A stretch of DNA of 64,000 nt from Syntrophobacteraceae bacterium (GCA_025453975.1 JALOPI010000007.1:1-64000), one strand, 5' to 3'; shown: positions 38,943-57,915, counted from the first letter of the stretch. A program made the numbers and translations. Notes: generated by a model from the letters alone, not told the origin.

Positions 38943-39043
38943 TTCCTTGCCTACATTACTCGGTGTATGGAGTGGGAAGTGACGGCGCAAGCATGATCAC
39001 AGGCGTATTCACCCAAAGAGCAGAACGGTCAAGGAGTCAAAAG

Positions 39044-40030
39044 ATGCTGAAGAAGGTGCTCGGTAGGAGAGGTCTTGCTGGAATGGCGGTGATGGCCGCG
39101 GCGCTCCTGGCTGCCACGACGGCCCCTGCGGTGGAGCTGGATCCCAAGCTGCCGGACTACAAGCCCGTGAGCGGCGTTTCGGGCAACATCAAGTCCATCG
39201 GCTCGGACACTCTCAACAATCTCATGAGCCTCTGGTCCGAGGGCTTCCGGTCCCAGTATCCCAGCGTGAAGATCGAGATCGAGGGGAAGGGCTCGTCCAC
39301 GGCCCCGCCGGCCCTCATCGAGGGAACGGCTCAGTTCGGTCCCATGTCCCGCGAGATGAAGGCCAAGGAAATCGAGACCTTCGAGCAGAAGTTCGGCTAC
39401 AAGCCGGCTCACATCCGCACGGCCGTGGATTCCCTGGCCGTGTTCGTGCACAAGGACAACCCCATCAAATGCCTCACCCTGCAGCAGCTGGACGCCATTT
39501 TCTCCAAGACCCGCAAGGGCGGAGCCGCCAAGGATGCCGTGACCTGGGGAGACCTGGGGCTCAAGGGGGAATGGGCCGACAAGCCCATCTCCCTGTACGG
39601 ACGTAACTCGGCTTCGGGAACTTATGGTTATTTCAAGGAAGTGGCTCTATTCGGGGGGGACTACAAGGACACCGTCAAGGAGCAGCCGGGCTCCTCGGCC
39701 GTGGTTCAGGGCATCGCCTCGGACAAATATGGCATGGGCTATTCCGGAGTGGGCTACAAGACGGCCGATGTGCGCATCGTGCCCCTGGCCGTGAAGGAAG
39801 GCGCCTGCTTCGATGCCACGGCGGAGAATGCCTACAGCGGCGATTATCCCCTGGCCAGATTCCTTTACGTCTACCTGAACAAGAAGCCTGGCGAAGCCTT
39901 GGATCCGCTGCGAGGCGAGCTCATCAAGTACATCTTCTCCAGGCAGGGCCAGCAGGTGGTCATCAAGGACGGCTTCTATCCCGTGTCGAAGGCCATGGCG
40001 GACGAGGACATGAAGGCGCTGGGCATGTAG
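39044..40030 (+). CDS. pstS: phosphate ABC transporter substrate-binding protein
   Basis: Signal peptide; IKSIGSDTLNNLMSLWSEGF, EIEGKGSSTAPPALIEGTAQFGPMSREM, YGRNSASGTYGYFKE. Confidence 0.93.
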   Translation: MLKKVLGRRGLAGMAVMAAALLAATTAPAVELDPKLPDYKPVSGVSGNIKSIGSDTLNNLMSLWSEGFRSQYPSVKIEIEGKGSSTAPPALIEGTAQFGPMSREMKAKEIETFEQKFGYKPAHIRTAVDSLAVFVHKDNPIKCLTLQQLDAIFSKTRKGGAAKDAVTWGDLGLKGEWADKPISLYGRNSASGTYGYFKEVALFGGDYKDTVKEQPGSSAVVQGIASDKYGMGYSGVGYKTADVRIVPLAVKEGACFDATAENAYSGDYPLARFLYVYLNKKPGEALDPLRGELIKYIFSRQGQQVVIKDGFYPVSKAMADEDMKALGM

Positions 40031-40139
40031 ACACCGGTGCATTCTCATTGATTGGACTGGGCAGCGATGGGCGGAGCTCGGGGTTACTCCCGGGCCTCGC
40101 CCGGCCTGCTTCCATGAACAACCCACGATGAAGTGACGC

Positions 40140-42788
40140 ATGAGCCCTGATCCCACAAGCCCTGACTCCCCTCCCGCCGGTGCTCCGGCCGGATCCACCG
40201 TATACGAGCCGGTGCTCCGCCGGACCAAGGAGGCCCGCCGTTCGGTGCTGATCGCCGACCGGGTGGCCGACTGGACCATCACCGTTGGCGGGATCCTCGT
40301 TATCATCGCCGTGTTCGGGATTCTCGTTTTCCTCGTGGAGGAAGTCCTGCCCCTGTTCAGCCGCGGTACCGTGACGGGTCAGGCCAGCTACCGCGTGGCC
40401 GAGCTGGATGATCGCATCGCCGCGGTGACCATGGATGAGCACCACTCGCTGGCCGTCCTGGTGGATGTTCATGGGGGCACACGGGCCTTTCATGCCTCCA
40501 CGGGTGTCCCCATGAGGGTGGGCGGCTTTGATTTCGGAGACCGGAAAGTGACCGCGGTGGCACTGGCCCAGGACCGGGAGAATGTGGCTTTCGGAATGGA
40601 AGATGGAACGGTGCGCTTCGGTCGGCTGAAGATCCAGACGGACATATTGCCGGCCGAGAGCCTTCCCCAGGGGCTCACCGTGCTGGATGAGCGCGACTTC
40701 ACCGATGGAGCGGCGGTCTATTCCAGGATCCCTGGAAACCAGGTTCGCAAAGTCACTCTCGAAGCGAGGCTCGAGGCGGAAGGTGGCGTGGAGCCGAGCG
40801 GGGCTCCCATCCTGGCTCTGGACTATCGCCTCGGGGGCCTGGCCGAGCGTCCCACCCGGGCCTTCGTGACCGTGAGCCGGGGGGGGGAGATCGACCTGAG
40901 CCTGGCGGAGTCCCGGCTCAACATGCTGACGCGGCAGACTACCGTCACGGTCACACGGTCGAAGCTGCCCCCTCTGCCCCGTGGGTTCGTGCCCTCCCAC
41001 GTGCTCATGACCCAGAAGGCGGATCAGGTTTACGTCGCCGACGAGGGCGGGCGCGTGGTCCGCTACAATACCCAGAGCCTGAGCCAGCCGTCCCTCGCCG
41101 AGGATGCGGACCTGCTCCCCACGGACGTCCGGTTGACGACCCTGGGGTTCCTGGCCGGGGAGAATTCCCTGGTGGTGGGTGGTTCCGACGGCTCCGTGAA
41201 CATCTTCTTCCGGCTGGCCCGGGAAGGGAGCCCCACGGAAGACGGCTTCACGATGGTGCGCGCCCGCGAGCTCCAGAAGCATGCCACGGCGGTCCTGAAT
41301 TTCCAGCCCACCCAGCGAGACAAGACCTTCCTCACCGTTGATGCGACGGGGGACATTCGGGTGCGCCACGGTACTTCCGAGAGCACCCTGCTGGACATCG
41401 ACGCCGGGGTGGAGCCCTTTGCCGCCCTGGCGTTCGCGCCCCGGGGGGACGGCATTCTGGGCCTCCGGCGGAATGGGGAAGTCACCCTGTGGAGGCTTTC
41501 GATTCCGCATCCGGAAACCTCACTCCACACGCTCTTCGGCAAGGTCTGGTACGAAGGGTATCCCGAGCCTGCCTACACCTGGCAGTCCTCGGCGGCCACC
41601 GACGAATTCGAGCCAAAACTTTCCCTCGTCCCACTGATCTTCGGGACGGTGAAAGCCACGGTGTACTCCCTGATCTTCGCCATCCCCATCGCCCTGCTGG
41701 GGGCCATTTACACCTCGGAGTTCATGCACCACAGAGTGCGGTCCATGGTCAAGCCGCTCATGGAGATGATGGCCTCGCTTCCCTCGGTGGTCCTGGGCTT
41801 CGTGGCTGCCCTGGTGCTGGCGCCTGTGGTGGAGACCTGGATCGCGGCGGTGCTGCTGTGTTTTTTCGCCTTCCCCCTCTGCCTCGTCCTGTCCGCGTAC
41901 GTGTGGCAGTTTCTGCCCGGAAGCATCGCTCTGCGGCTCGAGGGCATACCCAAGTTCCTGCTGGTCCTCCTCATGGCCGGCGCCGGTGTATGGGTTTCCT
42001 ACCGGCTGGGGCCCGCCTTCGAGAGGATTTTCTTTTCGGGCCATTTCACACTCTGGGTGAACGGCAGCCTGGGGGGAGCGGAGCCTTTCCTGTTTCTGAT
42101 CCTGCTGCCCCTGCTTTTCCTGCTGGTGAGCATGGGCTGCTCGCGGCTGTACGGCAGCCGCCTCAAACAGAAGCTGCGCCGGGCGACGCCGTTCATGGGG
42201 GCGCTCGTTTCCTTCATCCACTGGGTGGGGCAGGGGCTGGCCACCGTATCCCTGGCCTTCGCCCTGGCCAGTCTCATGGGGAGGCTTGGCTTCGACGTCC
42301 GGGGAACGTTCATCGACACCTATGTGCAGCGCAACACCCTGGTGGTGGGATTTGCCATGGGATTCGCCGTGATTCCCATCATCTATACCCTGGCCGAGGA
42401 CGCCTTGAACGCCGTCCCCGAGCACCTGCGGGCCGCGAGCCTCGGGTGCGGAGCGACCCCATGGCAGACGGCCGTCTGGGTGGTCCTCCCCACGGCGGTG
42501 AGCGGGGTCTTTTCAGCCGTCATGATCGGCATGGGCCGTGCCGTGGGGGAGACCATGATCGTCGTCATGGCCACTGGAAATACGCCCATCATCGACTGGA
42601 ACCTGTTCAACGGCCTCAGGGCCCTTTCGGCGAACATCGCCGTGGAGCTGCCCGAAGCCGTTAAGGACGGGACGCTTTACCGGGTGCTCTTTCTGACGGC
42701 CTTGATCCTGTTTGCCATGACCTTCGTCATCAACACCCTGGCGGAGATCATCCGCCAGCGATTCAGGAAGCGCGCCCTTCAGTTGTAG
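40140..42788 (+). CDS. pstC: phosphate ABC transporter permease PstC with long extracytoplasmic insertion
   Basis: TM1 then ~400-residue repeat-like insertion, then permease core (PLIFGTVKATVYSLIFAIPIALLGAIYTSEFM; RAASLGCGATPWQTAVWVVLPTAVSGVFSAVMIGMGRAVGETMIVVMATG). Confidence 0.9.
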   Translation: MSPDPTSPDSPPAGAPAGSTVYEPVLRRTKEARRSVLIADRVADWTITVGGILVIIAVFGILVFLVEEVLPLFSRGTVTGQASYRVAELDDRIAAVTMDEHHSLAVLVDVHGGTRAFHASTGVPMRVGGFDFGDRKVTAVALAQDRENVAFGMEDGTVRFGRLKIQTDILPAESLPQGLTVLDERDFTDGAAVYSRIPGNQVRKVTLEARLEAEGGVEPSGAPILALDYRLGGLAERPTRAFVTVSRGGEIDLSLAESRLNMLTRQTTVTVTRSKLPPLPRGFVPSHVLMTQKADQVYVADEGGRVVRYNTQSLSQPSLAEDADLLPTDVRLTTLGFLAGENSLVVGGSDGSVNIFFRLAREGSPTEDGFTMVRARELQKHATAVLNFQPTQRDKTFLTVDATGDIRVRHGTSESTLLDIDAGVEPFAALAFAPRGDGILGLRRNGEVTLWRLSIPHPETSLHTLFGKVWYEGYPEPAYTWQSSAATDEFEPKLSLVPLIFGTVKATVYSLIFAIPIALLGAIYTSEFMHHRVRSMVKPLMEMMASLPSVVLGFVAALVLAPVVETWIAAVLLCFFAFPLCLVLSAYVWQFLPGSIALRLEGIPKFLLVLLMAGAGVWVSYRLGPAFERIFFSGHFTLWVNGSLGGAEPFLFLILLPLLFLLVSMGCSRLYGSRLKQKLRRATPFMGALVSFIHWVGQGLATVSLAFALASLMGRLGFDVRGTFIDTYVQRNTLVVGFAMGFAVIPIIYTLAEDALNAVPEHLRAASLGCGATPWQTAVWVVLPTAVSGVFSAVMIGMGRAVGETMIVVMATGNTPIIDWNLFNGLRALSANIAVELPEAVKDGTLYRVLFLTALILFAMTFVINTLAEIIRQRFRKRALQL

Positions 42789-42885
42789 GGAGCCGGCCGC
42801 CACGGTTCCTGAAGTCGATGACCGGGGGAGTGTGGCTCTCCCGGCGCGGTCCCATGTACTTCTGCGATGTGGAAGGGTAACGCCC

Positions 42886-44655
42886 ATGAACAGGAATCTT
42901 GAAGTCACGTCCATCGCCATGAGCTTGAGCTCCGTCGAAGCCCTGGCTCCGGCAAAAACCGCGGTGCAGGCCCGCCGGGCCGCCCGCTCGGACCTGACGG
43001 CCAGGGGAGAGCCCTTCCTCTGGGGGTTTGGTGGCGCCCTGGCCCTGGGGCTCATGATGGTCTTCGGCTTCCTCGTTCTCATCCTCTGGAACGGGCTGGT
43101 CACGTTTTATCCCAAGCCCATCAAGGTCTTGACCCTGAGGGACGGATCGAGGATCGCCGGGGAGCCGGTCCGGTCCGAGTACTTCCGCCCTTCGCCCCAG
43201 CAGCTTCAGGCCATGGATGATCGGGCTCGGGAGATGGTGGCCGCCGAAGACGGCATGGCCCGGAGAACCCTGTATCGCACCGGCAATTTTGATCTCTACA
43301 ACGAGGATTTCAAATGGGTGCCGGACTACAATGTGGCCAAAGTCTCCACACCTTCCAACATCTATTTCATCGAGCGCATGGAGTGGGGGCCCTTCGTCGG
43401 GATCATTCAGTCCCTGGATCTGGGTGGCGAGGTCCAGTCCGGGGCGGTGCTGGATGACCGGACCCTGGACGATGCGGTGAGGCAGGCCGCGCTGCGGCGG
43501 GACCGCATCCGAACGATCGAGCGCGAGGACATCGGGGCCGTGAACCATCGGATGAACGGTGAGCGGCTGGCGCTGCGGAGACTGGGGATCAGGAAGGGTG
43601 AAGGGAGCGAGGCTTTCCAGGAGGCCTCCCGGGCTTACAGCCTCCGGACCGCCGAGCTTCAGGCCCAGTACAACCTGCTCAGCGAAGAGGCCCGCTCCGT
43701 CAAGGAGGAAGACGCGCGCTTCAAGGTGACCCTGGTCGATGTTCAGGGGAGGCAGAAGGATCTGCCCCTCTCGCAGATCGTTCGGCTCTACCCCGCCAAC
43801 GGGCTGTCGATGCCGGAGAAGCTCGGAGTGTTCTTCTCCCGGTGGAGGGAGTTTCTCACGGAGGAGCCCAGGGAGGCCAACACCGAGGGGGGAGTCCTGC
43901 CCGCCATATTCGGGACCTTCGCCATGACGATCCTCATGGCCATCGCCGTGGCGCCCTTCGGGGTCATGACGGCCCTCTATCTCCGCGAGTACGCCAGGCA
44001 GGGGAAGCTGGTCTCCGTCGTCCGGATCTGCGTCAACAACCTGGCGGGCGTGCCGTCCATCGTCTACGGGGTCTTTGGGCTGGGCTTTTTCGCCTACATC
44101 TGCGGAGGGAGCATCGACCGGATCTTCTACCCCGAACGGCTGCCCAACCCGACTTTTGGCACCGGCGGGCTGCTCTGGAGCTCCCTCACCCTGGCACTCC
44201 TCACCGTGCCGGTGGTCATCGTGGCGACGGAAGAGGCCCTGGCCGCCGTACCTCAGTCCATGCGCGAGGGCTCTCTCGCCTGTGGGGCTTCCAAGTGGCA
44301 GACCATCAAGCACATCATCCTGCCGCGAGCCATGCCGGGCATCATGACGGGTCTCATCCTGGCCATGGCGAGGGGGGCTGGGGAAGTGGCACCCCTCATG
44401 CTGGTGGGCGTTGTGAAGATCGCCCCCGAGCTTCCCATCGATCAGTTCTTCCCGTTCATCCATCTCGAGAGGAGCTTCATGCACCTCGGTTTTCACATAT
44501 TCGACGTGGGGTTTCAGTCCCGCAACTCCGAGGCCGGAAAGCCCATGGTTTTCGTCACGACGCTGCTGCTCATCTCCCTGGTCGCCATGATGAACGCCAT
44601 GGCCATCGTGATTCGCAACCGGCTCAAACGGAAGTTCATGGTCGGGCATTTCTGA
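42886..44655 (+). CDS. pstA: phosphate ABC transporter permease PstA
   Basis: LPAIFGTFAMTILMAIAVAPFGVMTALYLREYA; AGVPSIVYGVFGLGFF; REGSLACGASKWQTIKHIILPRAMPGIMTGLILAMARGAGEVAPLMLVG. Confidence 0.92.
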   Translation: MNRNLEVTSIAMSLSSVEALAPAKTAVQARRAARSDLTARGEPFLWGFGGALALGLMMVFGFLVLILWNGLVTFYPKPIKVLTLRDGSRIAGEPVRSEYFRPSPQQLQAMDDRAREMVAAEDGMARRTLYRTGNFDLYNEDFKWVPDYNVAKVSTPSNIYFIERMEWGPFVGIIQSLDLGGEVQSGAVLDDRTLDDAVRQAALRRDRIRTIEREDIGAVNHRMNGERLALRRLGIRKGEGSEAFQEASRAYSLRTAELQAQYNLLSEEARSVKEEDARFKVTLVDVQGRQKDLPLSQIVRLYPANGLSMPEKLGVFFSRWREFLTEEPREANTEGGVLPAIFGTFAMTILMAIAVAPFGVMTALYLREYARQGKLVSVVRICVNNLAGVPSIVYGVFGLGFFAYICGGSIDRIFYPERLPNPTFGTGGLLWSSLTLALLTVPVVIVATEEALAAVPQSMREGSLACGASKWQTIKHIILPRAMPGIMTGLILAMARGAGEVAPLMLVGVVKIAPELPIDQFFPFIHLERSFMHLGFHIFDVGFQSRNSEAGKPMVFVTTLLLISLVAMMNAMAIVIRNRLKRKFMVGHF

Positions 44656-44758
44656 GGGCCGGCGGCATAGTCGGCGTGTGTCTCGTTGCTCCCGCCGGGG
44701 GGGATGCCCAGAACTCCCCCCCGGATTTGCGAGCTTATCGATCAGGTAGGAGTCTTGC

Positions 44759-45607
44759 GTGGCTACTGCGACCATTCCCTTGAAATCGCCTGGGGCGAGC
44801 CTTTCAACCGGGCAGCCGGGCGAAACGGTGTACCATGTGAAGCCTGGCACCGGTGGGACGCTCATCGAGGTGAAGGGCTTCAACCTCTATTACGGCACCA
44901 AGCAGGCCCTCTTCGACATCGACATGGATATCGAGCAGGGCCTGGTGACGGCTCTCATCGGTCCCTCGGGCTGCGGCAAATCCACCCTGCTCCGATCCCT
45001 CAACCGCATGAACGATCTCATCGACGGGCTGAAGACCACTGGCCGCATCGTCATCGATGGAACGGACATCTACGCGCCCAACATCGATGTCATCGGGCTT
45101 CGAAAGCGCATGGGGATGGTCTTCCAGAAGCCCAACCCGTTCCCCATGACCATTGCCGACAATGTCACCTATCCCCTCAAGGTGGATGGTGTCCATGACC
45201 GGACCGTCCTGAACGAGACCACCGAGAGGGCCCTCAAGGGGGCCGCCCTCTGGGAGGAAGTGAAAGACCGCCTCAAGGACAATGCCCTGGGCCTTTCGGG
45301 CGGCCAGCAACAGCGGTTGTGCATCGCCCGGGCCATCGCGGCGGACCCCGACGTGCTCCTCATGGACGAGCCATGCTCGGCCCTGGACCCCATCGCAACG
45401 GCCAAGATCGAGGAGCTGATCTACCAGCTGCGGGGTCATTACAGCATCATCATCGTGACCCACAACATGCAGCAGGCGGCCCGCGTTTCCGATAACACGG
45501 CGTTCATGTACCTGGGGAAGCTCATCGAGTATGGAGAGACGACAAGCATTTTCACCAACCCCCTGGTGCCCAAGACCGAGGATTATGTGACGGGCCGATT
45601 CGGTTGA
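44759..45607 (+). CDS. pstB: phosphate ABC transporter ATP-binding protein
   Basis: [72 protein letters not shown] start. Confidence 0.96.
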
Positions 45608-45765
45608 TCGTTGATGACGTGCTTCACGCGGCGGATGTGGGGGCTTGGAGCGTGATTCCCGCCCCAACCGGTTGTGGGGGTCGACTCAGGCCGGCGGTCC
45701 ACCGTTTCCTCGATGCCGACGGTTGCGCGCTGCGGGCAGGGGGGATGGTGGCGGAGAGGTGACGG

Positions 45766-46464
45766 ATGGTGACGGAGCATACGGTTCGGTCTTTTTCCAA
45801 TGAGCTCAAGGCCCTGGATCAGTCCATCCAGGAGATGGGACGCCTTGTCATCTCCCAGATCGGCGATGCCATGAAAGCCATCGTAGACCTGGATCTGGAA
45901 AGGGCCAGCGCGGTCATCCAGAGGGACAGGAGCGTGGATGACCTGGAGCGCGCCGTGGACCAGATGACGGTGAGGCTCCTGGCCTTGAGGCAGCCCGTGG
46001 CATTGGATCTGAGAGTCATCATGGCCGCGCTGAGGGTGTCCATCGATCTGGAGCGCATTGCGGACTACGCTGCCAACATCGCCAAACGGGTCCGGGACCT
46101 GAAACAGGCTCCCATGGCGAAGCCCATGGCGGAGATCGTGCGCATGGGGGACCACGCCCGCGCCATGCTGGACGATGTTCTGCGGGCCTACCTGACGCGA
46201 GACGCGGAGCTGGCCTTGCAGGTCTGGGGGCGTGACGATGAGATCGACCGCATTTACACCGGCCTCCTGTACACCCTTCGGGACTCCATGGCCGCTGACC
46301 AGCAGGCGGTCACCCCCTGCTCCCATCTGCTGCTGGTGGCCAAGTGCATGGAGCGCATGGGAGACCACATCACCAACATCGCCGAGCACATCCAGTTTCT
46401 GGTCCGAGGAGTCTCGCAGCGCCAGATGGGCGGGCCGGCCGGCGCCTCGAGCGAGGGAGAATGA
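45766..46464 (+). CDS. phoU: phosphate signalling protein PhoU
   Basis: DRSVDDLERAVDQMTVRLLALRQPVALDLRVIMAALRVSIDLERIADYAANIAKRV; CMERMGDHITNIAEHIQFLVRG. Confidence 0.95.
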   Translation: MVTEHTVRSFSNELKALDQSIQEMGRLVISQIGDAMKAIVDLDLERASAVIQRDRSVDDLERAVDQMTVRLLALRQPVALDLRVIMAALRVSIDLERIADYAANIAKRVRDLKQAPMAKPMAEIVRMGDHARAMLDDVLRAYLTRDAELALQVWGRDDEIDRIYTGLLYTLRDSMAADQQAVTPCSHLLLVAKCMERMGDHITNIAEHIQFLVRGVSQRQMGGPAGASSEGE

Positions 46465-46468
46465 ACCC

Positions 46469-46930
46469 GTGGCGAAGCTGAAGGTCTTGTTCATCTGCAT
46501 CCACAACAGTGCCCGCAGTCTCATGGCTGAAAGCAGTCTCAAGCGGTGGGGCGGGGATCGCTTCGAGGTGAGCAGCGCTGGGCTCTCGCCGGGTCCGGCC
46601 AATCCGCTGGTGGTGGAGGTCATGAAGGACTGGGGGGTCGACCTGTCCCACGGCCGGGGGCGGAGTGTGTTCGAGCTCTACAAGTCCGGGAAGCTCTACG
46701 ATTATGTGATCTCCGTGTGCGACGAGACCGCGGCGGAGCGCTGTCCCGTCTTTCCGGGAATCACCCAGAGGCTGCACTGGAGCTTCGAGGATCCCTCCAC
46801 TTTCGAAGGCACGCTGGATGAGAAGCTGGAAAGGACGCGCCGCCTGCGTGACCGGATCTCCCGGCGAGTCCAGGAGTGGGTGGAAGAGATGAGGTCCTCC
46901 GGCGGCATCGGTGAGCCCATGAAGGAATAG
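46469..46930 (+). CDS. arsC: arsenate reductase / low-molecular-weight phosphatase family (ArsC-like)
   Basis: KVLFICIHNSARSLMAESSLKRWGGDRFEVSSAGLSPG, VISVCDETAAERCPVFPG; GTG start 5 bp after phoU. Confidence 0.85.
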   Translation: MAKLKVLFICIHNSARSLMAESSLKRWGGDRFEVSSAGLSPGPANPLVVEVMKDWGVDLSHGRGRSVFELYKSGKLYDYVISVCDETAAERCPVFPGITQRLHWSFEDPSTFEGTLDEKLERTRRLRDRISRRVQEWVEEMRSSGGIGEPMKE

Positions 46931-47175
46931 CTTCTTCCGTTCCCTTCCTGCCCACTACCTCGGTTTGGCTCCCCGAAGCCGCCCCTCCCCCGGTTTTACC
47001 CATGGCCCCCGACCACGCCCGTGATTGCGCCGAGTACACCTCGTCCCTCACGACGGCTCCCATTTCGGGCCCCGTCCACGGACAGGCCAGCTCCCAAACC
47101 CTTTTGTGCTTGATCCCTTCTTTTGCCCTATGCCATAAATGATACAACCACGTGGGAGAGGCCTCGGGTGTGTGA

Positions 47176-47961
47176 GTGTACACGGGCCTGCAAGGGCTTT
47201 TGGGTTATTTTTTCACGATCCGGCGGGCCCTCCAGGCTCGCGAGGATGCGGAGGATGGAGCTTTGAGCGTACTGGGCGAAGGTTTTGCCGAGGCCCTGCG
47301 GCTGCTCGTCACCCTGGACCCGGAGGTCGTCGGCATCACCCTCCGCACCATCCAGGTCTCGGGGCTGGCCACCTTCGTCAGCGTGCTCCTCGGCATCCCC
47401 TTGGGCACGGCCCTGGCCCTGACCCGGTTTTTTGGACGGGGCTTCGTCGTCAGCCTGGTCAACTTCGGCATGGGGCTGCCGCCGGTGGTGGTGGGGCTTG
47501 CCACCTGGCTCTGCCTGACGCGCTACGGCCCCCTGGGGATGCTGGGCATCCTGTACACCCCGTCAGCGATGATCGTCGCCCAGACGATCATCGCCACTCC
47601 CATCGTGGCCGGCTTCACGCTGGCGGCCATCCAGTCGGTGAATCCCAAGCTCAGGCTCCAGATCCTGTCCCTCGGGGCCACCCGGCTCCAGTACCTGCTG
47701 CTCCTGCTCTGGGAGGCGAGACTCGGCATCCTCGCGGCGGTCATAGCAGGGTTCGGCGGGGTGATCAGCGAGGTCGGGGCGTCCATGATGGTGGGCGGGA
47801 ACGTGCGGGGCTACACGCGCGTGCTGACGACGGCTACCGTCCTCGAGGTGTCCAAGGGCCGGTTCGAGCTGGCGACGGCACTCAGCATCATCCTTTTGCT
47901 CCTCACCTTCTGCATCGTGGCGGGGCTGAGCTACCTCCAGCAGCGGCGGAGGGAGGCATGA
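47176..47961 (+). CDS. tupB: tungstate-type ABC transporter permease
   Basis: TLRTIQVSGLATFVSVLLGIPLGTALAL, GLPPVVVGLATWLCLTRYGPLGMLG, YTPSAMIVAQTIIATPIVAGFT, EVGASMMVGGNVRGYTRVLTTATVLEVSKGRFELATAL. Confidence 0.85.
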   Translation: MYTGLQGLLGYFFTIRRALQAREDAEDGALSVLGEGFAEALRLLVTLDPEVVGITLRTIQVSGLATFVSVLLGIPLGTALALTRFFGRGFVVSLVNFGMGLPPVVVGLATWLCLTRYGPLGMLGILYTPSAMIVAQTIIATPIVAGFTLAAIQSVNPKLRLQILSLGATRLQYLLLLLWEARLGILAAVIAGFGGVISEVGASMMVGGNVRGYTRVLTTATVLEVSKGRFELATALSIILLLLTFCIVAGLSYLQQRRREA

Positions 47962-48686
47962 TCCAGGGCGAGACCATGGTGGGCGTCGAGGATCTGCGGC
48001 TGGAGCTGGGGGGGCGCCAGATCTACCACATCGACCGGCTGGCCATCCGCAGGGCTGAGGTCCTGGCGCTGGTGGGGCCCAACGGGGCGGGGAAATCGAG
48101 CCTTCTCCTCACCCTGGCACTGCTCCAGAAGCCCACGTCGGGCACCGTCGAGATCGACGGGGAGGCGGCCCGCAACGGGAACGCGCTGGGGCTCAGGAGG
48201 AAAATGGCCGTTGTGTTCCAGCAGGCGCTGCTCCTGGACATGACGGTGCGACAGAACCTTCTGGCGGCCCTGAGGATCAGGGGCATCCCCCGGCGAGAGG
48301 CGCTGGAGCGCGTGGCGTACTGGCTGGATCGGTTCGGCATCTCGTCCCTGGCTCAGCGGCCCGCCCGGGTGCTTTCCGGGGGAGAAGCCCAGCGGGCCAG
48401 CCTGGCCCGGGCCTTTGCGCTGGAGCCCAGGGTCCTGCTCCTGGACGAGCCTTTTGCCGCCCTGGACTACCCGACCCGAAAGGCCCTTCTGAATGACCTG
48501 GGCGGGCTGCTGTCGGAAATGAGCATGACGGCCCTCTTCGTCACCCACGACTATACCGAGATCCCGTATCTGGCCGAGCGCGTGGCCGTGCTGCATCAGG
48601 GGAGGATTGTCAAGGACGGGAGTCTGAGGGAGGTTTTCGGAGAGGATATGCTCAAGCGCAGCCTGTGGGCTCCCTGGGAGACCTGA
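47958..48686 (+). CDS. tupC: tungstate-type ABC transporter ATP-binding protein
   Basis: ALVGPNGAGKSSLLLTLALLQ, VLSGGEAQRASLARAFALEPRVLLLDEPFAALD; ATGA overlap with tupB. Confidence 0.85.
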   Translation: MIQGETMVGVEDLRLELGGRQIYHIDRLAIRRAEVLALVGPNGAGKSSLLLTLALLQKPTSGTVEIDGEAARNGNALGLRRKMAVVFQQALLLDMTVRQNLLAALRIRGIPRREALERVAYWLDRFGISSLAQRPARVLSGGEAQRASLARAFALEPRVLLLDEPFAALDYPTRKALLNDLGGLLSEMSMTALFVTHDYTEIPYLAERVAVLHQGRIVKDGSLREVFGEDMLKRSLWAPWET

Positions 48687-48930
48687 TTCCGACCCAGCCT
48701 CCACGGAAGGACGCCGTCGCCAAATCGTCAAGAAAACTTCACCACGCCGTAACACCCGGCCCCGCCGGGCTCGCTATGATGAAGCCAGAGATCATCGGGA
48801 ATCGCCTCTTCATCGGCTCTTCGCCTTGACGACAGCGGACGGGCCCGCGGGAACCCTCTCTCCCACGGGCTTCTCCGCACTCCTTTCCGGACCCCCCATC
48901 GCCGCAAGGCTTCCCGGCAGGGTCTGACGA

Positions 48931-50046
48931 TCATCCAGCGCAGTCCAGCTCCACAAGGATTCCCTCCTCTCCCTCGGCGGGATAGCGGGCGTCATAGTCT
49001 CGACCTGCCGCAAGCGCGGCGTTTTCCCAGGGAATGGTGTGCTCGTTCCGGTAGTTGAACCAGAGGGTGGGCTTCCGGACGGACCACTGGATGACGGCTT
49101 CCATGGCGGCCAGGTCGGGGTGGTCGTGGATGTCGCCATTGGTGCTGACGAGGAAGTGCTCGGCGTCCACCAGGCCCAGCAGCTCCTTGGAAATGTTGGC
49201 GCGGCTCCCGTGGTGGGACATCTTGAAGGCATCGACCTTGAGCCGTTTTTCCCCCGGCGGGATGAGGCGCTTGATGGAGTCGCAGAGGACCCGCGTGTGG
49301 GCGTCGGCGAGAAAGAGGCAGCTTCGGCCTTCGAACGCGGCGAGAAAGGCGATGCTGCTGCCGTTGGCCTTGGAGGAGTCGGGCTTGAGCTGTTTCTGCA
49401 GGGCGGCGCTGAAGTCGTCGGGGCCTCCCAGGAGCCCTTCCTCGGGGTGGTATCGGGTGGCGTTCGCCAGCTGGTCCCAGGCGGCGTCCAGGTCTCCGGG
49501 GTCCAGGCCGAACTTCTGGACGTCCTTTTCCCACTTGCCGGCCATGCTCTTGAGCCGGTTGGCATCCGGCGACAGGAGAGTGATCTTCATGCCCTCCTCG
49601 AGAACCACTTCGGGGAGGGGCTCGCCGGGGGTCACCACCACCGCGTTACGGTCGAAGGCCCGGTTCCACTCGTCGAAGGCCCTGCGGCGGAGGAGGGCGC
49701 TCAGGAAATCCCCTTCCCGCCCTCCCAGGTCCCTCGATTCCTCCATGTGCCGCCAGCCGTTGAACCAGATGTCCGCGGGCTCGATGGGCCACCGGCTGCG
49801 CTTTTCCGCGAAGAGCCGGATGAGGCCCTCGATGTGGTCCGTGTCCACGTGGCTCACCACCACCAGCTCCAGCCCCCGCTCCCCGTCAGGCAGGGCATTC
49901 AGCCGATCGACGATCCGGGGGTAGGCGGCGATGGGGCCACCGTCGATGAGGATCCGCCGGGTGGTGGCACCGCGCCCGTACTCCACCAGGAGGGCGTCGC
50001 CGTGGCGGGCCGGGAGCATATGGATTCGGAAAAATGCGTCGGACAT
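48931..50046 (-). CDS. MBL-fold metallohydrolase, ComEC/Rec2-like
   Basis: LIDGGPIAAYPRIVDRL, LVVVSHVDTDHIEGL (HxDxDH), CLFLADAHTRVLCDSIKRLI, KMSHHGSRANISKELL; start overlaps the upstream CHAT gene stop (TGATG). Confidence 0.85.
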   Translation of the reverse strand: MSDAFFRIHMLPARHGDALLVEYGRGATTRRILIDGGPIAAYPRIVDRLNALPDGERGLELVVVSHVDTDHIEGLIRLFAEKRSRWPIEPADIWFNGWRHMEESRDLGGREGDFLSALLRRRAFDEWNRAFDRNAVVVTPGEPLPEVVLEEGMKITLLSPDANRLKSMAGKWEKDVQKFGLDPGDLDAAWDQLANATRYHPEEGLLGGPDDFSAALQKQLKPDSSKANGSSIAFLAAFEGRSCLFLADAHTRVLCDSIKRLIPPGEKRLKVDAFKMSHHGSRANISKELLGLVDAEHFLVSTNGDIHDHPDLAAMEAVIQWSVRKPTLWFNYRNEHTIPWENAALAAGRDYDARYPAEGEEGILVELDCAG

Positions 50047-52946
50047 CAAGACTCCTTTCCGTTGAGCTTCCAGTCGGCATCGCCGAAGGCCACCACGCAG
50101 AGCGCCATGAGCAGCCCGTCCTGGAGTGCCTTCCGCTTGATGGAGCGCATCACCTCCCCGAGCCGCTCCGGATTTTCACCATCCCCCTCGGTCCGGAGCC
50201 CCTCGACGATCTGTTGGGCGACCCGCGCCGCGTGCCCGCCGAAGACGGTGGCGATGGTGCCGATGACAATGGCCGCGCCTTTTCTGCGGAAGACCGCCAC
50301 GTGGCTCCCGTAGTCCATGGCCGTGCCGACCGTGTCGCAGCCCAGAAGGGCGGCGACGGGGCTGATGGAGGAGCCCTCGGGGCGGACATGGGATTCCTTG
50401 ATCTGAATGCTCTTGATGGTCTTGCCCCCGATCTCGAGGGTAGCCTTGGCCCCATGGCCGTCGGTGTGCGGCAGGGCGACGATCAGGCTCGGGCTCCACT
50501 GCTGGACCAGCTCGGCCCACTGGGTCCAGTCGCTGGCCCGCTGGGGCGCGCGGCCCGTGCGCGATTCCAGGGCGGCCAGCACCGGCGCCAGGAGCTCATC
50601 CTCCACCCGCTTGCTTGCGGCCACCACGGCTGTGCCGCCGAGGAGCAGCTCGGCCCGGCCGGCGGCGCATTCGGACTGCAGAAAGACCTCGCGCCCTTCC
50701 CGGGCGAGCTCTGGGGTGTAAACGTGGCGCTCGATCACCTTGCTCACGCCCCAGAAGCCCAGGGGGCAGACGGTCTTGCCGCTCAGGGTGTCGCAGCTTT
50801 CCGAGCATTTCCCTTCCCGCGCCTCCGCCATCCAGCGGGGGCAGATGGCGGCGTCGTCGTCGGGGGTCTCGTGCTCGTAGATGAGCTCGAACGGCACCAG
50901 CGCGTCGCTCCGTGTGCTGACCACCTGGATGTACTCCATGGCGGCGATTTCGGGACGGTTGGTCGGAGCCATGAGCTGATCTTCCACGAGGGAGCCGTGG
51001 AGCTGGCGGCCCAGCTGAGCGAGCTCCACGAGGAGAGCGCGGTTCTTGGGGGAATCGAGGCTTCCGCTGTAATCCTTGACGGATTTGGCGACGCGGCTGA
51101 GGGCGTCGTTGATCTCCGAGGTGATGGCGCTGCAGTCCGAGATGTCCGCGATCCAGGCATGGCGGTCTGAGATGGCCTGGAGGCGGGGACGCTGGTCCGC
51201 GGCGTGGTTGACGACCATCGCGAGGTCGAACCGCCGCCGCTGATCCAGGTCGCCGATGTTGGCCCGCACCAGGACGAGGTCCGCCAGCTCGATGGAGGCG
51301 TCGGCGGCAATGGCATCTTCGTCCTGAACGACGGCGGCCTTGAGGACGGCCGTCTGCAGGACTCGCCCCCGGTGCAGCACCGTGATCCTCCCTTCGAAGC
51401 GGTGGTGCCTGCCAGGGACGAAGCGGAATTCACACTCGGTGCTGGGGCCGTCCCTTCGGAGCCGGATGAGCCTGCGCTGGGGCTGGCTCAGATGGTGAGG
51501 CTCGGTGAGAACGACGGTGAGGCGCCAGGTGTCCAGCTCCCCGGGGAGCAGCTCCTCGGGGAAAGCCTCGGGAAGCGACGTCCAGGTCTCGTCCGGCGGG
51601 CCGATGCGCACGCGGGCCAGGGTAGGGAGTCCGCGAATGTAAGCCCTCGTTTCAGGCTGGTATCTTCCGCTTCTCCTGATGAGGGACTGCTGCTGCAGGA
51701 AGCGGCGTGCCCTCTGCCGCCGAGCTTCCTCCGGAACCTCCGCGCGCCTGATGGCCCTGCTGATTTTGGCCATGCCCGTGGCCCCGCTGCTCTCGGCAAG
51801 AAAAGTCACGTCCTTCTGGTGACGGGTGAAGGTCTCGAGCGCCGCCGCCGCCAGGGGGTGATGGGGAAGGTCCCCGGCCGGCATGGTCAGCCGGTCGAAA
51901 GTGTCCGGCTCCAGGGGGAGCTTTGTGCCTTTGGGCAGATCCGCCAGTCGACCCCGGATGGTGTCCAGAAGGAGGCTGACTCGAAAATCCCGGATCTCGG
52001 GGCTCAGGAAGACGACGGTGCCCGCCTCGTCCGAGGGCGAAAAAGCCCTGGAAACGCAGACATCCACCGGCAGGTCGTGGGAAAGGCATTCCACGAAGGC
52101 GTTCAGGCTCCACGCCCACGATGCGTCCGACAGGCCGGGATGCAGGAAGACGAAACCGTTGGCCCGGCTTTCGGCTGCCGCCGCGGCCAGCCGCTGGGGC
52201 CAGGCCGGATGCCCGTCATCCAGGTCGCCGCGCACGATGATGCCGATGCATTTCCGGGCGCCCGGAAGATCGACGAGGGTCTGGAGCAGCCGCCGGATTC
52301 CCCCGTCGAAAACCAGGATGTCGCAGTCGACGTTGTCCCGGTCGATGGCCACGGTCTCGGCGAGGTCGTTGGCCGGCCAGAAAGCGAGACCTTCCCTGAG
52401 AGCCTTCTCGGCTCCGTTCCCCGGGAAATAGCCAATGCGCAGGGGCCAGGTCCAGGGGCTGGGGGGCAGGGGAGCCTCGAACTGGATGTAAAGGGATTTG
52501 CCGGAGGGGCTGGCCTCCGTCAGGACCCGGAGCCAGGGGGTCACGGGATCCCGGACGGGGTATCGCGTGACCGCGATCCGTGGGGCCAGCTCGGGGGGAA
52601 TGTTGAGCTGTCTCCAGGCATGAGCCACCACGATGGGCTCGATTTCGGCCAGGGGAAAGGAGTTGGCCCCCACGTGCAGCACCTGGTCGGGCGAGGGGAA
52701 GTGCCAGTCCACCGTTTCCTGCTGGTGGATGGTTTTCCCCGCGACCTCCGCCAGCAGCCGATGGAGGTCGGCCTCGCCGGGGGAGGGGAAGCCGGTTGAG
52801 CCCTCCACCGGGCCGGGAGTGATCTTCACTCCAGCCGTTGGCGACGCGGAAATCCGGGCCAGGAGACCCAGCCCAAGGAATGCATCGGCGAAATCCCTGT
52901 CGCCGATCCCCAGTCCCCACCGCTGCCAGAAATCGAATCCCTGCAT
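50046..52946 (-). CDS. CHAT (caspase-like) domain protein, 966 aa
   Basis: C-term His block SPSLIVALPHTDGHGAKATLEIGGK and Cys block VAALLGCDTVGTAMDYGSHVAVFRRKGAAIVIGT; Cys cluster AICPRW...GKCSESCDTLSGKTVCPLGFWG; N-term has a second degenerate alpha/beta region (VDCDILVFDGG...GFVFLHPGLSDASWAWSLNAFVECLSHDLPVDVCVSRA). Confidence 0.75.
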   Translation of the reverse strand: MQGFDFWQRWGLGIGDRDFADAFLGLGLLARISASPTAGVKITPGPVEGSTGFPSPGEADLHRLLAEVAGKTIHQQETVDWHFPSPDQVLHVGANSFPLAEIEPIVVAHAWRQLNIPPELAPRIAVTRYPVRDPVTPWLRVLTEASPSGKSLYIQFEAPLPPSPWTWPLRIGYFPGNGAEKALREGLAFWPANDLAETVAIDRDNVDCDILVFDGGIRRLLQTLVDLPGARKCIGIIVRGDLDDGHPAWPQRLAAAAAESRANGFVFLHPGLSDASWAWSLNAFVECLSHDLPVDVCVSRAFSPSDEAGTVVFLSPEIRDFRVSLLLDTIRGRLADLPKGTKLPLEPDTFDRLTMPAGDLPHHPLAAAALETFTRHQKDVTFLAESSGATGMAKISRAIRRAEVPEEARRQRARRFLQQQSLIRRSGRYQPETRAYIRGLPTLARVRIGPPDETWTSLPEAFPEELLPGELDTWRLTVVLTEPHHLSQPQRRLIRLRRDGPSTECEFRFVPGRHHRFEGRITVLHRGRVLQTAVLKAAVVQDEDAIAADASIELADLVLVRANIGDLDQRRRFDLAMVVNHAADQRPRLQAISDRHAWIADISDCSAITSEINDALSRVAKSVKDYSGSLDSPKNRALLVELAQLGRQLHGSLVEDQLMAPTNRPEIAAMEYIQVVSTRSDALVPFELIYEHETPDDDAAICPRWMAEAREGKCSESCDTLSGKTVCPLGFWGVSKVIERHVYTPELAREGREVFLQSECAAGRAELLLGGTAVVAASKRVEDELLAPVLAALESRTGRAPQRASDWTQWAELVQQWSPSLIVALPHTDGHGAKATLEIGGKTIKSIQIKESHVRPEGSSISPVAALLGCDTVGTAMDYGSHVAVFRRKGAAIVIGTIATVFGGHAARVAQQIVEGLRTEGDGENPERLGEVMRSIKRKALQDGLLMALCVVAFGDADWKLNGKES

Positions 52947-53259
52947 GGATGCCTCCTGTCTGAATGGAATCCCAGGCGGGCCGACCCGGCCTCGGGCGCT
53001 TCATGCTGCACGTTACGGACTGAGGCACACCAATTCTGCGTGGAGAGGACGAGAGGACGCTGGTCCATCGCCGTGACCCGCCCGGGGCCGGCGAAAGCCT
53101 GGCTCGTTGGTCGAATGAATGGCACAAAACCAGCCGACTTGCAAGGACCTGCCGAGGGATGTTTTCTGGTGGGCCGTCACCGTTCGACGGAACGGGGATT
53201 CTGGGGCGATCCCCCGGCCTGGGCCGAAGTACGACGGGGCTCTCGGCGGGCCTTGAGGA

Positions 53260-54312
53260 TCAGATGCGATCTTCCTTGACGTGGAAGGAGATGCTCGATC
53301 CGGTTACGGTGCTGCGCCCCGTGTAGAGGAATATCGACACCCACAGGCCCTGGAGCACGAGGAGGAGGCCGGGGCTCCACAGCGCCTTGAGCCCCTGGAT
53401 GATGCTCGGCGGCATGACATCCGCCTCGGGAAGGACCCACCGAGCCAGGAAAGCATAAACAATGGAGAGGATGGCCATGATCTGGTAGGCCGATACGGGC
53501 TGCTCGCCCCGGTAGTCCGCCCGCAGGAGCTCGGAGAAGGCTCGCCAGGCCTGGGTCACACCGGCCGCGAGGAGGAACGAGGCTCCAAAGAACGAGCTCA
53601 GGAAAAGGCCCATGGAGATCAGTCCCGTGGCGATGTATCCCACGGCCGTCAGGGCCTGGACGGGGATCACGGCCCGCCCGTCGAGCTGGCTGGCATAGGC
53701 GATTTTTTTGGTTTTTCCATGAAATACGAAGTGCCGATTGCCGAAAGTTCTGGCCCAGAATGGAGGGGATGATTCGAGAGACCGGCCGTAACAGCAGCCG
53801 AAGCTGATGCAGGCCAGGCGGCCGATGCCTTCGCCGAAGGCGTAGGAGACGGCGAGGGCGGAAAGCACCGCCAGGCTCGGCATGGGCTGGCTTCCAAGGA
53901 AGGCCAGGATGCCATTGAGGAGGACGATGGCCCAGGGGGCCATGACCATTCCCACGAAGGATGCCCCTCCGACGGTGAAGGTGTGGCGCTTGTTCTCCAC
54001 GATACGGGCGACCCAGCGGGAGGCTGGAACGCATAGCGCCAGCACTGCCGCCATCAGGGCGCAGGCGGCCAGTCGGGGGATGGCGATGGAGCCGGTCAGG
54101 ACCAGAAACAGGATGACGCCGAATGTGTAGGCCGAAGCGCTCAGGGCGCCGTACCAGGTGAGGTTGATGCCCTCCCAGGCGCCCCCCGCCCCCCTGGCCT
54201 GGGGAACGGCCGCCAGAAACTGCCACTCCTCATCCGGGAAATGCTGGAAAGCCCAGCGAAGCACCAGCCCGAGGGCCCCTCCCAGCAAACCGACGAAAAT
54301 CAGGTTGATCAC
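53260..54312 (-). CDS. multi-TM protein, prolipoprotein diacylglyceryl transferase (Lgt)-like
   Basis: Multiple TMs with VSYAFGEGIGRLACISFGCCYGRSLESSP; lacks a clear canonical GRxGNFxNxExxG signature; GTG start at 54312 (VINLIFVGLLGG). Confidence 0.55.
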   Translation of the reverse strand: MINLIFVGLLGGALGLVLRWAFQHFPDEEWQFLAAVPQARGAGGAWEGINLTWYGALSASAYTFGVILFLVLTGSIAIPRLAACALMAAVLALCVPASRWVARIVENKRHTFTVGGASFVGMVMAPWAIVLLNGILAFLGSQPMPSLAVLSALAVSYAFGEGIGRLACISFGCCYGRSLESSPPFWARTFGNRHFVFHGKTKKIAYASQLDGRAVIPVQALTAVGYIATGLISMGLFLSSFFGASFLLAAGVTQAWRAFSELLRADYRGEQPVSAYQIMAILSIVYAFLARWVLPEADVMPPSIIQGLKALWSPGLLLVLQGLWVSIFLYTGRSTVTGSSISFHVKEDRI

Positions 54313-54334
54313 GGTCCTTGTCTCCCTCCTCCCT

Positions 54335-55408
54335 TCATGATGGTCCCATGGGGTCCCTCGAGGCAGCTCGAAGCTCCGCCCCTCGGTCCAGCGCCATGCC
54401 GATGGTGGACCGGACCCTGAGGTCGGTCTCCACCAGCGGTCGTCCAAATCCCTCGGAGAAGCGGCTCGAGGCCCCGGGTCTCCGCATGTTCTCCAGGAGG
54501 TCCATGGAGAATCGCACCCGATGGGGCTGGAAGAGCAGAACATCCGTGCTGCTGCCCGGGCGATAGAGGCTTTTGGGCCTCCCCCGCTTCAGGAGCATAC
54601 CCTTCCGGACGGACCTGGGGTCGTCGTAGCCCTCGTCGCTGTAGCACTGGACGATGTCTCCGATCATGAGGGCCACGATCTCGATCATGGCCACGAGCCC
54701 CGCACGGGTTCCGCCGTCGACGTCGGTATCCAGGATGGTGACCACGCGCTTGTTCTTGGAGTAGGGAGTCACGGCGGCCACGACGGCCCCTGGGTTGCAC
54801 GAGTGGTATGCTCCGGGGATTTCATAGATGTCCACGACTCGGCCGGTCACGGGAGCGTGGTTGTAGTGGTACTTGTCCGGTGTCAGGCGGAAGACCGCGT
54901 AGTCGCCCCGGGCGAACGCGTCCAGCCAGCGGGTCTTGTCCAGGCCGAGGAGCTCCGTGAAGTGAAAGAACTTCTCCTTCAGCACCAGGCACGAGGTATC
55001 CCGAAAGGACCCCAGGAGGGCTCGGGCGTCCGCCGGTGACACGACGGCACGCGGATCGCTCTCCATGGGGCGGCACTCCCAGTAGCGGATTCTTCGCTCG
55101 AACACATCCCGAAGGGTCCGCATGTCTTCGGGGGGATCCAGGGCTTCGGACCAGTCGATGCCCAGATTGCGCTGAAGGTCGGGGTCGTGTCGCCAGCCTG
55201 CCCGCAGGGTCAGGTCGAAGCTCACGAATCCCAGGAGCTTGGAGATCCTGGGGCTCGTCAGGATGTCGAAGAGCCGTCCCGGCTTCTCCCGGTTCGTCGA
55301 GTAGATCTGGTTCAGGAGCCGGTCGGCGATGAGCTTCTCGGTGCGGGCCCTACCGGTTTGCCGTTCGACATACTGGTGCTCCATCAGGGGGGGATGCCGG
55401 AATCTCAT
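54335..55408 (-). CDS. phosphatidylserine decarboxylase family protein
   Basis: FRLTPDKYHYNHAPVTGRVVDIYEIPGAYHSCNP, VTILDTDVDGGT..GLVAMIEIVALMIGDIVQCYS, pyruvoyl-type PGSSTDVLLFQ. Confidence 0.85.
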   Translation of the reverse strand: MRFRHPPLMEHQYVERQTGRARTEKLIADRLLNQIYSTNREKPGRLFDILTSPRISKLLGFVSFDLTLRAGWRHDPDLQRNLGIDWSEALDPPEDMRTLRDVFERRIRYWECRPMESDPRAVVSPADARALLGSFRDTSCLVLKEKFFHFTELLGLDKTRWLDAFARGDYAVFRLTPDKYHYNHAPVTGRVVDIYEIPGAYHSCNPGAVVAAVTPYSKNKRVVTILDTDVDGGTRAGLVAMIEIVALMIGDIVQCYSDEGYDDPRSVRKGMLLKRGRPKSLYRPGSSTDVLLFQPHRVRFSMDLLENMRRPGASSRFSEGFGRPLVETDLRVRSTIGMALDRGAELRAASRDPMGPS

Positions 55409-57818
55409 GGTAGGTCGAGCTCTCCTTTTCCAGGTCGCGGGCCACGGTGATGAGCACCAGATCGATGAGCTTGAGGATCTCATCGCTGGTGAGGCTTTCA
55501 TCCGCTGCGCGCTTCCTGATCCGACTCAGGAATTCCGTGGCGGGGACTTCCCCGCAGACGTCAGCGAAAAGGGGCCGGTACGCCTCCTCGTCCAGGTCGT
55601 AGGCCCCGTCCATGGCCTTCAGGTCTTCTTCGAGAACCACCATGGCTTCCGCCGTGTGCCGCTTCCGGAGGGTGCCCCGGTAGTAGCGCTCGGCCGCCGC
55701 GTTGAATTCCCTGGCCCTGGCCCGCATGGGGGATCGGGCCCCCAGCTCCTCGAGGATGCCCCGCTCCAGCTTTCCGCCCGCGCCGGCTTCTCCCGGGTGG
55801 CTCAGCCTCTCCAGCAGATCCTGGAGGGTGGATCCCAGGTCGAGGAGTCCGACGAGGTCGTCGGCTTCGCGCAGGAGGAGCTGGGCCAGGGCCTTTCGAT
55901 ATTCGGCGTGGTAGACCCTCAGGTACCCCGGATAGCGCCGGCTGAGCCGGACGCGGTCAGTGCCCTGGATGACCTGTCTCAGGAAGCGGTTTCCCGTGTC
56001 CTGCCGCACATAGAACGTGGGGATGCCGATGGCGCCGCCGAAGAAGATCTGTCGCCTTTCGCTCTCCACGCTGGGGTCATCGGGGATGTCGCCGAGGCTG
56101 ACCCGCCCCTCGGCGATGAGCTTGAGGGCGAATCCGGTCACCAGGACCTGGAGGCTGGCCCCATGGCCCAGGTCGTCCAGGAGGGAATGGAACAGGCTGT
56201 AATACCTCCCTTCGAAGCCGCTGAACCCCACCTGGTGCTGCTCGCGAAGGCGGTAGAGCATGTAGAGCGCCATGCGGGAGTCGAAAACCCCCAGCTCGGT
56301 CAGCTCGGCCTTGAGGCGATCCCCGTTGCCAAGACGCCCGTCCAGGGCGGGGCTGCCCTCGGTGCTCATGAGGGCCACGAAATAGTCGATGAGCCGGAAG
56401 TCGGGCACCAGGTCGCCCTTGAGGTTGAGGACCCACGCCAGGGCCCGGTCCAGCCACTCGGGGCCGAATGGGGTCACGGCGCAGCCGAGAACGCGCAGGC
56501 TCGCCTTCTTTTTCCAGCGTCTCCAGATCATGCGCAGGTGGGTGTAGTCCAGCTCGTGAGGGAGGAATCCCAGGGCCTTTTCCGGATGGAAATCGCTGAA
56601 GTCCATGCGGTAGGGGGCGGCGCTGTAGGAGCCCACGAAAAGCGGGAGAAAGTGCTCCACCACCTTGATGATCAGGTCGCCGAGGGTCTTTTCGTCAGCC
56701 CGTGTGAATCCGGAGGAGCCGTCCTGGAGAGCCAGGGTCAGCTTGCGGCTGCCCAGGCTCAGGTGGGTGCCGTTGTTGGCCAGGCTGATGTTGGAGAGGT
56801 TGGGGAGCACCACCAGATTGCGGGTGATGATCCCCGCCTCGCGCAGCTTGGCGATGGCGTTGAGCTGGCTCCGGCTCAGGACCTGGTGGCACAGGCCCAT
56901 GTACCGGTGCTTCTCTTCCCCTCGGTCCCACCCCGACAGGCAGGGGCTCATGAATAGCTCCCGGTAGAAGGCGTCGGAGATGGAGTCGTTGAGCTCCTTC
57001 TGGCGTATGGGCGGATGCGGCGCGAAGTAGACCAGGACTTCCTGGCCGTTGGAGCGCAGCTCGAAGCGCTCGTTGGCGTACTGGACCAGGAGCTGGGTCA
57101 GGAGAAACCGTTTGGAGGTCTCCCGGGCGATGGCCCGTCCCATCCCGCGATGCGGGTGGAGTCCCACGGGGTGAAAGGAATAGGTTTCGGGCGAGGTGTT
57201 GTCGTTCAGGAAGTGAGCCATCAGGCGTAGCCCGACCTCGCGCATCCGGGGCGGCAGGTCTTCCTGGGCGCCGACGGCGTCGGCCAGGGACAGCTTGAGG
57301 AGGTAGCTGATGGGGATCCTCAGGATGTGCTCGCCGTCTTCGTGGAGAAGAAACCGGTCCAGGTCCGATCGCTGACCCATCTGGGGATCGCGCTTGTCGG
57401 CCAGCAGATCGGTGTCCAGGACCTGCCGGGCCAGGGGGGTGAGCAGCCGGAGCGGAAATCGCACCCAGCTGTTTTCCCAGACTTTTTCCCTGTTCTGGCT
57501 CAGGGTGCGCTCGAGATGGCTGACGACCTGACGGGAGGTGTCGCCGGCCGAGGCTCTTCGCATGAGGTGGGAGAACGTGCTGGAGCCAGCGATGGTCAAG
57601 GGCAGGTCCACGGTGTCCCGCTCTCCCCGGACGGCTACCTGGAGCTCGTTCTCCGTCCCGGCGGTGACGTCGTTCAGTGAGAAGGGCAGCGATTCCGAGA
57701 GGCGGTGGGACGGGGTGTGGCCGATTCCGAGCTTCTGGAGGATGGACTGGATGGACGGGGTGGCCTTGCGAGCCGCACCCCAGCTCCTCTCCCATTCCGA
57801 TCTTTTATGGCGGATCAT
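55350..57818 (-). CDS. large protein of unknown function (822 aa)
   Basis: Long ORF (MIRHKRSEWERSWGAARKATPSIQSILQKLG...) with normal protein composition; 3' end overlaps the PSD-like gene by ~59 bp. Confidence 0.8.
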   Translation of the reverse strand: MIRHKRSEWERSWGAARKATPSIQSILQKLGIGHTPSHRLSESLPFSLNDVTAGTENELQVAVRGERDTVDLPLTIAGSSTFSHLMRRASAGDTSRQVVSHLERTLSQNREKVWENSWVRFPLRLLTPLARQVLDTDLLADKRDPQMGQRSDLDRFLLHEDGEHILRIPISYLLKLSLADAVGAQEDLPPRMREVGLRLMAHFLNDNTSPETYSFHPVGLHPHRGMGRAIARETSKRFLLTQLLVQYANERFELRSNGQEVLVYFAPHPPIRQKELNDSISDAFYRELFMSPCLSGWDRGEEKHRYMGLCHQVLSRSQLNAIAKLREAGIITRNLVVLPNLSNISLANNGTHLSLGSRKLTLALQDGSSGFTRADEKTLGDLIIKVVEHFLPLFVGSYSAAPYRMDFSDFHPEKALGFLPHELDYTHLRMIWRRWKKKASLRVLGCAVTPFGPEWLDRALAWVLNLKGDLVPDFRLIDYFVALMSTEGSPALDGRLGNGDRLKAELTELGVFDSRMALYMLYRLREQHQVGFSGFEGRYYSLFHSLLDDLGHGASLQVLVTGFALKLIAEGRVSLGDIPDDPSVESERRQIFFGGAIGIPTFYVRQDTGNRFLRQVIQGTDRVRLSRRYPGYLRVYHAEYRKALAQLLLREADDLVGLLDLGSTLQDLLERLSHPGEAGAGGKLERGILEELGARSPMRARAREFNAAAERYYRGTLRKRHTAEAMVVLEEDLKAMDGAYDLDEEAYRPLFADVCGEVPATEFLSRIRKRAADESLTSDEILKLIDLVLITVARDLEKESSTYHEIPASPPDGAPVCRTANR

Positions 57819-57915
57819 GAAGGCCTCATGGCGGCTCAGCCGTGAATGCCCTCCGGCGGCGGCGACGGAGGCGGGTGAAAGAGATTATGGGGGCCGACGC
57901 CGTCGGGTCGGCAGC

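Follow-up and report, generated by a model that had tools for sequence, protein, structure and literature searches.

Positions 48,931 to 52,946 of a 64,000-nucleotide (nt) stretch of DNA from a Syntrophobacteraceae bacterium (GCA_025453975.1, JALOPI010000007.1:1-64000; hereafter, the window) carry two genes on the minus strand that together resemble a protease and its pro-nuclease. The upstream gene (50046..52946) encodes a 966-amino-acid (aa) protein, P0001, and the downstream gene (48931..50046) a 371-aa protein of the metallo-β-lactamase (MBL) fold. The open reading frame of the latter was called as 50049-48931 and its likeliest true start is the ATG at 50046, which overlaps the stop codon of the P0001 gene by 1 nt (TGATG) and has an AAGGAG just 5′ of it. 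Both reading frames thus lie in the overlapping arrangement given in an initial annotation of this DNA, which described a CHAT-like protease coupled to a ComEC-like MBL hydrolase. A scan for consensus promoters found none and is uninformative.

Pfam and NCBIfam give nothing usable for P0001. The Pfam CHAT family (PF12770) does not match it, no Peptidase_C14 or trypsin-family match was found at E ≤ 10, an HH comparison with a caspase set gave E 0.39, and its sequence profile found nothing credible in the PDB. We use the label CHAT because of the predicted structure and the homologues: the AlphaFold model (predicted local distance difference test (pLDDT) 85.4, predicted template modelling score 0.82) matches separase (Foldseek E 1.7e-8), Csx29 (3.7e-8) and TPR-CHAT (7e-7) at its C terminus, with further matches to SAVED-CHAT filaments and gingipain, and PF12770 recognizes 4 of 36 P0001 relatives (best E 3.2e-6). 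Plasmid-derived rows were left out of the alignments used for structure models. The motif blocks LPHTDGHG and LLGCDT noted initially contain the predicted catalytic residues His827 (50466..50468), invariant in 43/43 homologues, and Cys870 (50337..50339), kept in 42/43; both codons were checked, and this conservation distinguishes the blocks from chance matches. The CHAT-like label therefore holds for the predicted fold and the conserved dyad but not at the level of PF12770, and P0001 lies on a divergent branch of the CHAT/caspase-clan proteases.

Ahead of the catalytic part lies a cysteine cluster (C702...C718...C727; 50766..50843), a possible zinc-binding insert to judge from its conservation (C702 and C727 in 42/43 homologues, C718 in 41/43 and C714 in about two thirds). 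Strand runs in the model mark an all-beta region, probably a beta-sandwich, at residues ~416-601 (51144..51701). The alpha/beta N-terminal region (residues ~1-402; 51741..52946) is the least conserved part of the homologue alignment and is a candidate sensor region; among relatives of P0001, two match HEAT repeats and one an Mrr_N domain, the kind of domain that a sensor would be expected to have. The window's genome encodes a separate, canonical CHAT protein on another contig (G000:C107:28805-29602, L001; PF12770 E 4e-57).

The downstream protein belongs to MBL families tied to defence. PADLOC assigns it to LmuA of Lamassu (6e-67), Avs1a of AVAST type 1 (3e-53) and RTasMBL of DRT systems (3e-37), and all 38 CHAT-paired MBLs match these same families; Pfam gives a weak Lactamase_B match. 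Its score against the NCBIfam Avs1a equivalog, 232 bits, does not reach the 420-bit cut-off, and it is therefore a relative of Avs1a rather than an Avs1a. The AlphaFold model (pLDDT 87.3) has as its best solved-structure match the MBL domain of ComEC (9ic4; Foldseek E 1.8e-12). The HVDTDH and SHHGSR motifs of the initial annotation correspond to the metal-binding residues 66-71 (49834..49851) and to the HHGS motif at residues 278-281 (49204..49215). Among the 38 CHAT-paired MBLs, D68, D70, H71, H278, H279, S281 and the metal ligand D248 (49303..49305) are invariant, and H66 is present in at least 90%. The ComEC-like description was thus correct for fold and motifs but too simple, and the protein is better called a gated nuclease of the Avs1a/LmuA/CanC type that has the ComEC fold.

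According to Tuck et al. 2025 (PMC12799240), the MBL protein HamM is a pro-DNase opened by cleavage after Ile118 and Ile218, Avs1a behaves like HamM at Ile134/Ile234, and the canu system uses a caspase and has conserved glycines in both MBL loops; HamM, Avs1a and CanC are each activated by, or dependent on, a partner protease and carry two gating loops. The window MBL appears to share this design. The only segments of its model with pLDDT below 50, residues 104-107 and 203-225, mark two predicted gating loops, and an LGG occurs exactly at residues 107 and 206, within or at them. Loop 1 (residues 98-112; 49711..49755) has a predicted cut after Leu107 (SRDL↓GGREG), and loop 2 (residues 178-223; 49378..49515) has one after Leu206 (EGLL↓GGPDD). 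In the alignment, the first and second LGG share columns with the first and second ISA of Avs1a (136/237 in L095, 134/235 in L096). Of the CHAT-paired MBLs, 39/42 have LG in loop 1 and 42/42 have it in loop 2, compared with means of 14.4 (maximum 24) and 20.1 (maximum 29) in 2,000 within-loop shuffles; related rows inflate these counts and those given below for the residue before the cut (P1).

The predicted P1 residue tracks the partner protease, as far as aligned sequences can tell. Canu-type MBLs have Phe, Leu, Met or Tyr at this position, and the two loops agree in 18/23 (permutation mean 11.4, p 0.00055). In one campylobacterial clade, three loci (L042, L051 and L077) have Arg or Lys before the loop 1 glycine. 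Metacaspases cleave after Arg or Lys. In two of these loci (L042:1113-2952 and L077:6992-8917), the gated MBL adjoins a C14 caspase-domain gene, which on our reading of the sequence may be metacaspase-like.

The pairing of a CHAT protease with a gated nuclease is real and widespread. Using the MBL as bait, we collected the loci of its best 80 relatives, a sample biased towards the window's MBL type, so that the shares of the classes should not be taken as a census. In 37/80 the immediate upstream neighbour, in the same orientation, is a P0001-type CHAT gene, usually overlapping or within 25 nt, in taxa from Bacteroidota to Actinomycetota. In 17/80 the partner gene encodes a C14 caspase and/or CanB (canu-type), a CHAT-related gene lies downstream of the MBL in 3/80, and 16/80 are other or unclear. 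In the remaining 7/80 (L031, L032, L034, L059, L063, L068 and L084; 1049-1214 aa), the CHAT domain and MBL share one open frame, as checked with Pfam for two of them. Searches starting from the protease agree: all four matching genomes in a 399-genome sample of the order Burkholderiales carry the MBL next door, as do 5/5 strong plasmid hits (Cupriavidus, Sinorhizobium and Azospirillum). In the window's own phylum the CHAT profile matches 4/395 genomes, the two without the pair being distant relatives. The association is strong and not absolute. Variations on the layout include a single chain with MBL, CHAT and TPR-S (L053) and, directly 3′ of the CHAT–MBL pair at L056:8107-11958 and L049:8050-11457, a canonical CHAT protein that also has an nSTAND1/AAA ATPase domain and might be the initiator at the head of a protease cascade.

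The pair occupies a strain-variable position. On either side of it (36833-46896 and 53236-57875), the window is collinear with a genome of the same genus (G803). The variable segment (46931-53235) lies between a phosphate-transport operon and a cluster encoding an LGT-like protein and a phosphatidylserine decarboxylase, and in G803 an unrelated 615-aa gene takes the place of the window's pair and ABC transporter. The CHAT protein is absent from the whole G803 genome, so that the pair is present in 1/2 genomes of the genus. Plasmid copies sit among insertion sequence (IS) elements and HNH and Vsr nucleases. This patchy presence, the variable spot and the plasmid setting fit a mobile conflict system. 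Searches of viral contigs and phage records with P0001 found nothing, and the MBL profile found 12 distant relatives in viral contigs, none of which neighbours a relative of CHAT, caspase, CanB or lipase. The upstream genes for the LGT-like protein, the decarboxylase and an 822-aa protein were rejected as partners, as they are collinear host genes kept in relatives without the pair. The 822-aa protein (55350-57818) has no Pfam, NCBIfam or PADLOC match and is conserved (58-78% identity) beside the LGT-like protein and the decarboxylase in several genomes of the family.

Together, these results make it likely that the pair is a two-gene, abortive-type anti-invader module in which a protease activates a gated pro-DNase. 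This reading is supported by the Avs1a/LmuA/RTasMBL family membership and ComEC nuclease fold of the MBL, the protease activation of its tested homologues, the low-confidence loops with paired LGG sites aligned to ISA/ISA, the CHAT fold and dyad of the partner, the co-conservation, the patchy accessory location and the one-frame CHAT+MBL loci. In the proposed mechanism, the N-terminal part of P0001 would sense or regulate and its C terminus would act as a cysteine protease through His827 and Cys870. Two flexible loops would cover the MBL active site beforehand and hold the nuclease inactive. Once an invader was sensed, the CHAT domain would cut its partner after Leu107 and Leu206, and the opened nuclease would degrade DNA, so that the infected cell is stopped or killed. 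The pair is, then, probably an anti-virus self-destruct switch. The initial annotation had named three outcomes that would count against it, namely no CHAT fold in the structure prediction, unconserved catalytic residues, or a pair not kept together across genomes; each was checked, and all three results favour the interpretation. The sensor/effector pair initially suggested stands as a functional pair with its roles recast: on the best reading, the large protein combines sensing with an activating protease, and the MBL is the DNase effector that it would switch on.

Several observations weigh against this interpretation. For the CHAT–MBL pair, gating, cleavage, DNase activity and defence are carried over from tested homologues, and the Leu cut sites were positioned by homology. 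An independent-pairs test of partner against P1 residue went in the right direction (loop 1: 2.5 with, 0.1 against) and was not significant, with only 3 pairs on supported branches. At L018, Arg replaces Cys870. The N terminus of P0001 yielded no known trigger domain. There are protease relatives without an MBL neighbour, in G221 (L105), a Streptomyces plasmid (L097) and Calothrix (L098), and the protease can therefore work without the MBL. No other recognized defence genes lie beside the window locus. The argument for defence, drawn by analogy with the experimentally tested homologues described in PMC12799240, is nevertheless now much stronger than it was.

We considered it unlikely, though worth weighing, that the CHAT domain acts on phage or host proteins while the MBL has a separate activity of its own, such as that of a phosphodiesterase whose substrate is a signal nucleotide or a lipid; the pairing would then be functional without a zymogen cascade. 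Foldseek matches of the MBL also include phosphodiesterases such as the phosphorylcholine esterase Pce, the protease family is found without an MBL in some genomes, and phospholipase genes often join the module, so that lipid chemistry may matter. However, no structure matches the MBL fold better than the ComEC nuclease domain, its nearest relatives with experimental data are DNases activated by proteases (PMC12799240), and independent action leaves the paired LGG sites of both loops without a role.

It is more improbable still that the pair is a host module for programmed cell death or stress, such as a DNA-damage response, rather than a defence against phages or plasmids. Bacterial caspase-family proteins are often proposed in cell-death pathways, no phage record carries the pair and no trigger is known; set against this are its patchy distribution in the phylum and genus, its place at a variable spot in an otherwise collinear region, the plasmid copies beside IS elements and HNH and Vsr nucleases, and the ties of its MBL families to defence. 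That an unrelated protease-like frame happens to lie beside a housekeeping MBL hydrolase might be entertained from Pfam alone, which is almost signal-free for the large protein, but this is scarcely credible and is refuted by the co-conservation that the initial annotation had set up as a test: 37/80 MBL relatives across many phyla, and 4/4 genomes with the MBL when the search begins from CHAT.

Among the known systems close to the activated pro-DNase that we favour is canu (CanABC; PMC12799240), in which a stand-alone gated MBL pro-nuclease likewise lies directly 3′ of a clan CD cysteine protease and has two loops with a conserved glycine; canu-type MBLs are ~32-36% identical to that of the window. 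Unlike canu, the window's protease is a divergent CHAT with an extra Cys-cluster insert rather than a C14 caspase, P1 is Leu in both loops whereas in canu it is mostly Phe, and there are two genes instead of three, with no canB between protease and MBL. A CanB concealed inside P0001 had no HH support (E 0.17). The MBLs of Hachiman (HamM/HamAB) and AVAST (Avs1a/Avs1b) are homologous gated proteins with coinciding cut-site columns, but they are paired with a trypsin-like protease that is joined to a known sensor (HamA or the Avs STAND protein), and the window's gene order is reversed, with the MBL downstream.

Craspase (Cas7-11/gRAMP with TPR-CHAT/Csx29) shares the CHAT protease fold. In contrast to Csx29, P0001 has the beta-rich region and Cys cluster, and its predicted substrate is the adjoining nuclease instead of Csx30. 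Among the genes adjoining the pair, the part of the genome covered, there is no CRISPR effector and hence no Cas7-11/gRAMP. SAVED-CHAT of CBASS and BovA of Borvo also have CHAT protease domains; the BovA hidden Markov model matches 11/36 P0001 relatives (best 9e-10) and P0001 itself at 1.2e-4, in a match confined to 86 CHAT-domain residues. To our knowledge, neither SAVED-CHAT nor BovA is paired with a gated MBL nuclease. The nuclease domain of ComEC/Rec2 has the same MBL fold and HxDxDH...HHGS motifs, whereas the window MBL stands alone, has two regulatory insertions and no membrane channel, and matches TIGR00361 only at E 0.024. Among known systems in which a protease activates an MBL nuclease, the pair is a new variant that would work like canu and is not canu by its defining parts. 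CHAT may already be among the 'other diverse' protease partners listed with PMC12799240.

Many related loci include a phospholipase gene. A patatin (PF01734) or Tle1-like (PF09994) gene lies near the module in 20/42 CHAT–MBL loci, for the most part immediately 5′ of the CHAT gene, and in 8/23 canu loci, 3/7 fusions and 2/3 CHAT-downstream loci. Patatins occur at L018, L019, L021, L023-L027, L058, L067, L086 and L089, and Tle1-like genes at L044, L075 and L092. The use of one slot by two unrelated lipase families suggests a second, membrane-directed effector. No phospholipase gene was found in the window, and it is therefore not needed for the basic module. Lipases are not mentioned in the main text of PMC12799240.

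In a tree of the MBLs with the loops masked, the partner changes 21 times over six labels, and CHAT-type rows nest within canu clades on starred branches (for example, L074 with L033). A broader and decidedly tentative idea is that gated MBL nucleases form one modular cassette, in which the partner dictates a P1 residue shared by the two loops: Leu with CHAT, one of Phe, Leu, Met and Tyr with caspases, Ile with trypsin-like proteases and probably Arg or Lys with metacaspase-like ones. In CHAT-type cassettes, the protease would also switch on a phospholipase, a second effector that attacks the membrane.

If the proposed mechanism is correct, CHAT, a relative of separase and Craspase, is the third kind of protease to have been wired to the same pro-nuclease. 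This wiring would be readable from sequence, with two short matching sites in the nuclease naming the specificity of the protease. The substrate, cut site and partner of uncharacterized bacterial caspase-like proteases would become predictable, and the paired sites would offer a simple test of co-evolution between immune proteases and their pro-enzymes.

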